A DNA stretch of 64,000 bases from Halorubrum lacusprofundi ATCC 49239. Its GTDB lineage: Archaea > Halobacteriota > Halobacteria > Halobacteriales > Haloferacaceae. A program made the translations under genes and the position numbers. Position 1 is the stretch's first letter. Every line of letters starts with the position of its first letter. The notes beneath the pieces were generated by a model. That model did not search any database, had not been told where the DNA came from, and was given only the letters and a program-made list of their open reading frames with translations. Below are positions 21,787-22,671 of the stretch, piece after piece. Where the stretch lies: positions 1,364,001-1,428,000 of the forward strand of contig NC_012029.1 of NCBI RefSeq assembly GCF_000022205.1, given 5' to 3'.

Positions 21787-22671
21787 TCACTTTCTCCCCG
21801 GCGCGCGCTCGGCCAACACCGGAATCGCGGCCAGTTTGTCGTCGTCGAGCGCGTCCCAGTCGATCCCCTCCGGACGCGCGTAGGGCGTCTCGGTCCGAAT
21901 CGTTCGCTCGGGAGTCACTACCAAGTCGAGCGGCACGTCGTGAGCGTCGGGCGCGGGAAGCTCGGCGGGATCCGCGATCGGCGACTCAGGCCCGTCGAGG
22001 ACCGACAGCTCGTGGACCGTGGTCGCGACAGTGGTCGCGCCGTCGTCGGGCTTCGCCCGACTGTCACCGGGCGAAGCCCGGTTGCCCGAGGGACTCTGTC
22101 CCTCGCTGCCAGAGGCGCTTTGCGCCTCTCTGTCGACGGCGCCGAGTTCGCTGAGTACGCCCCACTCGAGGTCGCTGTACCCCTCACCCTTCCCGATTCG
22201 GGCGCCGTCGGTCGTGACGCCCACGGAGCCGGCGACCACGAGGTCGACGTGCGGCACGTCCTCGGGAGCGACGGGCGTGCCGTGCGTCGAGATGCCCGAG
22301 ACGGTGGTGGCGTCGTCGACGGTCGGGCCGTCGGCGTCGACATCGGCGGATTCGGAGTCGACGGACCCGACGTCGACGAGATCGGCGGGGTCGATCCGGA
22401 GGAACGGGTCGGCGTCGCGGAGCCGCGGCTGCGCGACGTACACCGTTTTTCCGTCCCTGAGCGCGGCGCGTCGCACGGGGAGCTGCGGCGCGTCCGGATT
22501 GCACTTCAGCGTCGACGCCGACGCCCACGCGTCGGTGTCAGTTAGGCGGTCGCACGCCGCGTCGGCGCCCGCGAAGTTCGGGATTCGGTCGTGGGGTGGG
22601 AACGGAAACCGGGCCTCGCCGCGCTCCTCGAACGCGTCCCAGACGGTCTCGCGGACGGCCTGTTTGTCCAT
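21787..22671 (-). CDS. 5-formyltetrahydrofolate cyclo-ligase family protein
   Basis: The 294-residue protein starts at ATG 22671. N-terminal RETVWDAFEERGEARFPFPP, VRRAALRDGKTVYVAQPRLR and the GKGEGYSDLEWGVL loop identify the family. It converts 5-formyl-THF to methenyl-THF with ATP and retunes the one-carbon pool. A Ser/Asp-rich insert at about residues 180-210 (DREAQSASGSEGQSPSGNR) comes from an in-frame array of hairpin-forming repeats at 22045-22129. The family core resumes after it (TTVHELSVLDG). The enzyme may still work, because the insert lies in a loop. Confidence 0.88.
   Translation of the reverse strand: MDKQAVRETVWDAFEERGEARFPFPPHDRIPNFAGADAACDRLTDTDAWASASTLKCNPDAPQLPVRRAALRDGKTVYVAQPRLRDADPFLRIDPADLVDVGSVDSESADVDADGPTVDDATTVSGISTHGTPVAPEDVPHVDLVVAGSVGVTTDGARIGKGEGYSDLEWGVLSELGAVDREAQSASGSEGQSPSGNRASPGDSRAKPDDGATTVATTVHELSVLDGPESPIADPAELPAPDAHDVPLDLVVTPERTIRTETPYARPEGIDWDALDDDKLAAIPVLAERAPGRK
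22045..22129. repeat. array of four triloop hairpins inside the cyclo-ligase gene
   Basis: Four perfect inverted repeats stand in a row, each with a 3-base loop: GTCGGGC-TTC-GCCCGAC (22045-22061), ACCGGGC-GAA-GCCCGGT (22066-22082), CGAGGGAC-TCT-GTCCCTCG (22087-22105) and AGAGGCGC-TTT-GCGCCTCT (22111-22129). Spacers are 4, 4 and 5 bases. Stems are 7, 7, 8 and 8 bp. The first two share a complementary core. The reading frame stays open. This looks like a miniature palindromic repeat family rather than chance. Confidence 0.9.

Follow-up and report, generated by a model that had tools for sequence, protein, structure and literature searches.

A dispersed 45-bp double-hairpin repeat of haloarchaea, nested in two copies within a Halorubrum cyclo-ligase gene

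Rickettsia palindromic elements (RPEs) are palindromic repeats that lie in frame in many unrelated genes, are absent from the orthologues of those genes and have no known dedicated transposase (PMC3733652, PMC10969869). As reviewed, they are about 150 bp long, and two of them, RPE-4 and RPE-6, are CGTC-type REPs (PMC3733652, PMC10969869), which have 8-9 bp stems starting A-T, loops of 4-5 bases, a head-to-head dimer arrangement and a CGTC (or TGTC/CCTC) tag. The intragenic GTAG REPs of Opitutus terrae (RAYT, REPINs, BIMEs) are short dispersed hairpins, found also as dimers, some of which code for 20-30 residues (PMC3733652). Among haloarchaea, Haloquadratum walsbyi carries PATEs and small mobile repeats (SMRs), palindromic elements with no transposase and no target duplication (PMC3119063); PATE palindromes derive from IS605 ends, and SMRs are about 110 bp long with terminal inverted repeats. 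PARCELs are tandem coding repeats with dyad symmetry that spread within genomes (PMC2996958), their 25-residue amphipathic repeats forming whole repeat proteins.

Here we describe a haloarchaeal unit whose nearest known kind is the RPEs and intragenic REPs: like them, it lies in frame in unrelated genes and is missing from orthologues. It is RPE-like by kind and not by homology, and it is archaeal and only 45 bp long. Unlike CGTC REPs, it has GC-rich 7 bp stems, 3-base loops and a direct A-B order, its sole resemblance to the tag being a TGTC/TGCC-like edge on one strand; unlike the GTAG REP/RAYT systems, it has GAC/GGC and no GTAG in its consensus, forms no inverted dimer and has no link to Y1 transposases. 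Because it fails on sequence, structure and Y1 association, the unit is assigned to neither REP family. It shares with PATEs and SMRs its haloarchaeal host, its palindromes and the lack of a transposase and of a target duplication, but neither of those has been described as an in-frame coding element. It differs from a MITE in having no terminal inverted repeat, with at most a GAC shared at its edges, and from PARCELs in supplying 15-residue polar linkers to conserved housekeeping genes. In open full-text literature (subscription journals lay outside the scope) we found neither a haloarchaeal description nor an archaeal precedent, and the peptide strings of the insert described below occurred in none of the open-literature papers. 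An earlier note on this DNA knew of no named element built in this way; the open literature agrees, but palindromic elements within genes, as a general kind, have been described in Rickettsia and Opitutus (PMC3733652, PMC10969869).

The window, a 64-kb stretch of the Halorubrum lacusprofundi genome, carries four triloop hairpins within the gene for 5-formyltetrahydrofolate cyclo-ligase (Table 1), separated by 4, 4 and 5 bases. The gene was identified by a PF01812 match (E 3e-17), its reading frame is intact despite the insert, and its nearest relatives, among 80 related loci, are all from Halorubrum. The perfect stems of 7-8 bp and the spacers of 4-5 bases that the earlier note had described are all present. 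Across the whole window we counted 16 triloop stems of at least 7 bp versus 11.8 in second-order Markov shuffles; since this total barely exceeds the shuffles, four stems within 85 bp are far beyond chance, as had been claimed. The complementary cores of the first two hairpins likewise proved real, being joined in a 13-nt perfect inverted repeat (22047-22059/22068-22080). The array had been credited with about 28 in-frame residues: the frame is indeed kept, but the insert measures 90 bp and 30 residues. Folded as single-stranded DNA, the array region reaches -38 kcal/mol (z = -7.4), and folded as RNA it has z = -6.6; an Rfam scan returned tRNAs and one sense-overlapping transcript family only, with no match at the arrays.

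Table 1. Coordinates of the hairpin array, its half-units and its host gene, in positions of the window.
Feature	Position	Strand	Description	Basis
5-formyltetrahydrofolate cyclo-ligase ORF	21787..22671	minus	host gene, 294 aa	ORF, PF01812, 80 related loci
Whole insert	22042..22131	minus	90 bp, 30 codons; two nested 45-bp units (A-A'-B'-B); REAQSASG-SEGQSPSG-NRASPGD-SRAKPDD	empty/filled orthologues, half-unit parsing
Putative target trinucleotide GAC (Asp codon)	22132..22134	minus	directly before insert start	flank codon counts in 42 aligned copies
Half-unit A	22108..22131	minus	24 bp, AG-[AGAGGCGC AAA GCGCCTCT]-GGC (REAQSASG)	sequence, family consensus
Half-unit A'	22084..22107	minus	24 bp, AG-[CGAGGGAC AGA GTCCCTCG]-GGC (SEGQSPSG)	sequence
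Half-unit B'	22063..22083	minus	21 bp, A-[ACCGGGC TTC GCCCGGT]-GAC (NRASPGD)	sequence, R1 match
Half-unit B	22042..22062	minus	21 bp, A-[GTCGGGC GAA GCCCGAC]-GAC (SRAKPDD)	sequence, family consensus
Triloop hairpin	22045-22061		7 bp stem, 3-base loop, perfect inverted repeat	
Triloop hairpin	22066-22082		7 bp stem, 3-base loop, perfect inverted repeat	
Triloop hairpin	22087-22105		8 bp stem, 3-base loop, perfect inverted repeat	
Triloop hairpin	22111-22129		8 bp stem, 3-base loop, perfect inverted repeat	

The array is two nested copies of a dispersed 45-bp double-hairpin repeat of haloarchaea. On the coding strand the recurrent unit reads AGC-[GAGGCGC NNN GCGCCTC]-TGGCA-[GTCGGGC NNN GCCCGAC]-GAC, two perfect hairpins that code in frame for 15 polar residues (DSEAQxASGSRxxPDD-like / DSE..xSGSRxxS.D). 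A blastn search of the array against its own genome found 12 places, one of them nearly full-length, and a 464-kb sample of that genome held 19 triloop arrays versus 4 in shuffles. We built R1, a covariance model of the 45-bp unit seeded mainly with coding-type copies; a first MAFFT seed alignment mixed 7- and 9-bp stems, and a second alignment was used in its place. Half-units A' and B' together match R1 as one unit (64.9 bits), and insertion of one unit at the internal GGCAG joint of another would give the AABB order of the window's array as its expected product.

In the H. lacusprofundi genome R1 found 50 matches, of which 31 score above 30 bits; the noise floor is the best score, 29.8 bits, that it reached in a control of 20 bacterial genomes, most of them GC-rich and together roughly 98 Mb. 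The earlier note had suggested looking for such units in haloarchaeal genomes, and they proved to be common: 291 of 392 sampled genomes of the order carry the unit at an E cut-off of 1e-6, as do 133 of 170 in the family at 1e-5 and 50 of 52 in the genus at 1e-4, these last two cut-offs lying close to the best control (4.7e-5), so that lone weak genus or family matches are untrustworthy. Beyond the order, roughly 200 genomes from the same phylum yielded no unit at 1e-6, all 32 positives being in the order; many of these outgroups are AT-richer, and it is for this reason that the bacterial control was added. Among 72,556 plasmid records, seven match, all of them haloarchaeal, and in all six that are annotated the unit lies within a gene. 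A viral vehicle was considered and rejected, there being no unit in 50,697 phage records and no match to one exact pattern in IMG/VR viral contigs. Identically scoring copies in three genomes (G028, G042 and G015) resembled recent bursts, but they have longer intergenic flanks in common, which makes gene conversion of a larger repeat equally likely.

An intergenic repeat of composite structure, roughly 300 bp long, was also seen in the H. lacusprofundi genome (CCTCCAAAGCCCCAGCC ... GACTGCCCCTTTGAGTCCCACC ... CCTCACGCCTCCCCAGCC; L022:10250-10650, L016:1550-1950, L017:11150-11600, L010:13950-14260, L013:11620-12020) and in other Halorubrum (L043:1200-1600, L052:1200-1600). It includes hairpin units with longer, 9-bp stems and CGAAAGGCGC / CGAGACGCC hairpin pairs joined by TGATGA, often adjoins TTTATAA boxes and has no Rfam match.

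Most Halorubrum orthologues of the cyclo-ligase have no insert, so the gene can do without the peptide. The earlier note had held that the hairpins would be a codon-level coincidence if every orthologue carried the same insert over different DNA, and the empty orthologues speak otherwise. The site lies after AVD and before the next Asp/Gly codons, and the window's gene exceeds empty ones by 30 residues, or by 29 against some orthologues because of the run of Asp. A single unit is present in Hrr. kocurii, salsamenti and californiense, two tandem units in Hrr. yunnanense, the 90-bp nested form in Hrr. amylolyticum, aidingense, persicum and SD626R, and the nested form plus one extra unit in Hrr. 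lipolyticum; in Hrr. persicum the stems have decayed and the reading frame is kept. On an insert-free cyclo-ligase tree this one site needs at least four state changes, with four forced by well-supported branches; they may reflect repeated gain, an ancient gain followed by losses, or exchange of alleles among species, and the last two could account for part of the same-site presence in distant Halorubrum species. Hrr. halophilum alone has a unit in a second, different loop of the enzyme, where no other orthologue carries one. Empty and filled orthologues were also found for the DUF7095 and CHY zinc finger genes among 51 genomes of the genus. At the DUF7095 site, two genomes of the genus (L252, L253) carry unrelated Asp/Ala-rich linkers, so this loop varies in length where the element is absent, too. 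In AlphaFold2 models most of the cyclo-ligase core has pLDDT above 90 and the insert region about 52-63; the insert is thus modelled as a low-confidence loop that connects a helix to a strand, the rest of the fold being confident.

The arrays of the three hotspot genes were parsed as AB, ABAB, ABABAB, AABB, AABBAB, ABB and AAB, with G(A/G)CAG at every half-unit boundary. The 24-bp and 21-bp half-units can thus be gained or lost one at a time. Long in-gene arrays were also noted in CHY zinc finger proteins with three units, in a PEP carboxylase with at least three and in another protein with two identical units (L169, L172, L173, L170).

Five copies in the H. lacusprofundi genome are clearly within coding sequence and share one frame, and most of the others are intergenic. 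The five hosts are the cyclo-ligase, the DUF7095 protein, the CHY zinc finger protein and, named from sequence, an aconitase-like and a histidine-kinase-like protein. We also examined 40 high-scoring copies drawn from many further genera, a set that the seeding of R1 biases to coding-type copies. By a codon-position GC test, 33 of them lie in coding sequence in frame +0; four that this test left open read as frame +0 as well (in a CBS protein, a CHY zinc finger protein, a phosphodiesterase and one other), giving 37 of 40, with one antisense and two ambiguous. The antisense unit, in frame -1, breaks the one-frame rule; it lies at L268:801-854 in a gene resembling PEP synthase. The insert in the window both follows a GAC and ends in one; of 42 aligned copies, 36 have GAC or GAT as the preceding codon, and in 40 the unit itself terminates in GAC or GAT. 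Stops never occur in the unit's frame +0 and are frequent in frame +2. Since the half-units are multiples of three and stop-free in the frame set by GAC, each unit adds a 15-residue polar linker and leaves the gene unbroken. The constant orientation of the unit relative to genes may, we argue, be due to selection.

The stems vary by paired substitution. In the 42 aligned copies, which were picked from the best model matches and so favour perfect stems, 587 of 588 stem cells form Watson-Crick pairs, and we counted 82 double changes and zero one-sided ones. Two less biased sets gave 44 double against 3 one-sided changes, with 3 G-U and 5 unpaired positions (copies in the own genome), and 703 Watson-Crick, 6 G-U and 33 mismatched pairs (all units of the three hotspot genes). 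G-U pairs make up about one-sixth of the departures, as for random single changes, and RNA pairing therefore does not look selected. A functional mRNA element acting in stability, pausing or processing, a role that the earlier note had raised, could draw on the strong RNA fold (z = -6.6) and on the coding-strand, frame +0 placement of most copies, but it is highly improbable given that G-U is not preferred, most orthologues have no insert, the stems decayed after insertion in Hrr. persicum with the frame kept, the host genes are unrelated and most own-genome copies are intergenic. It is harder still to credit that a favoured linker peptide happens to have palindromic codons: the peptide is alike across genes and sits in loops, but the intergenic copies carry the same hairpins, about four clustered stems exceed the chance expectation, and residues covary according to base pairing. 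In the aligned block, positions 4 and 7 are limited to Ala-Ala, Glu-Ser, Gly-Pro and Val-Thr, the two residues being linked because the stems stay Watson-Crick; such linkage is not predicted by any selection on a linker peptide. Paired double changes without an excess of G-U point to hairpins formed in DNA, not RNA, and the pattern fits correction of one arm from the other, or copying of perfect DNA hairpins only, followed by decay.

What moves such a DNA hairpin? It could be a non-autonomous single-strand transposon of REP/RAYT or PATE/IS605 type, mobilised in trans by a Y1 (HUH) transposase that recognises the hairpins as ends and inserts 3' of GAC without target duplication. The two subterminal hairpins, the absence of any duplication beyond the shared GAC and the target-like triplet at both the left flank and the right end would suit such a mover; IS200/IS605 elements are plentiful in haloarchaea, with 9 Y1 genes in the own genome, and Haloquadratum PATEs with near-terminal palindromes are already known (PMC3119063). 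We consider it unlikely, because neighbouring units and any correlation of copy number are both missing. Within about 1.5 kb of the Y1 genes, eight of which were searched in the own genome, R1 gave no convincing match, a single one of 16.8 bits being within noise. Across 51 genomes the number of Y1 genes is unrelated to copy number (rho = -0.003). Nine genomes that carry 6-60 copies show no Y1 match at all; draft assemblies may hide some Y1 genes. Three identically scoring Y1 transposase genes lie within about 19 kb in the own genome (G000:C2:435543-454548). Movement by another trans-acting enzyme (a relaxase, a serine or DEDD recombinase or a casposase-like enzyme) would suit the precise 45-bp unit and its recurrent precise sites, and CGTC-type REPs, too, spread with no known dedicated transposase (PMC3733652); with no candidate enzyme found, and with half-unit gain and loss and tandem growth requiring no such enzyme, this seems a still more doubtful proposal.

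With Y1 unsupported as mover, hairpin-directed template switching at the GAC/GGCAG motifs is favoured. We consider it probable, at roughly 60%, that the repeat is a non-autonomous DNA element, a two-hairpin 45-bp unit that enters behind GAC and spreads by hairpin-directed copying. A strand folding into or out of hairpins would switch template at the unit-edge motif G(A/G)C(AG), so that a single unit or several are copied into a site with GAC; the same switching could add or drop half-units, one stem arm could be repaired from the other so that stems stay perfect, and selection would spare only insertions whose translation is a harmless hydrophilic loop. Template switching would explain the precise units, the tandem growth, the half-unit changes and the perfect stems, and we infer from these that the unit spreads at the DNA level. 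The earlier note had offered a mobile or replication-generated palindromic repeat as one reading of the array, and the dispersed copies, clean empty sites and tandem and nested arrays support it.

To judge from the open literature, this would be the first palindromic element coding in frame to be described from Archaea, and one found across most genera of an order rather than in one pathogen genus. It accounts for many lineage-specific loops of haloarchaeal enzymes, among them aconitase, PEP carboxylase, class I tRNA synthetase, pyruvate phosphate dikinase-type enzymes, PolX and CBS proteins, and supplies clean before/after pairs for the tolerance of proteins to new loops. It also makes the transposase-free spread of short perfect hairpins testable in a genetically tractable group. 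More tentatively, these copies may belong to a class-wide archaeal family of transposase-independent, hairpin-copied repeats that, through their length (15 codons), Asp-codon target and reading frame, act as a self-spreading peptide linker and continually write new surface loops into core proteins.
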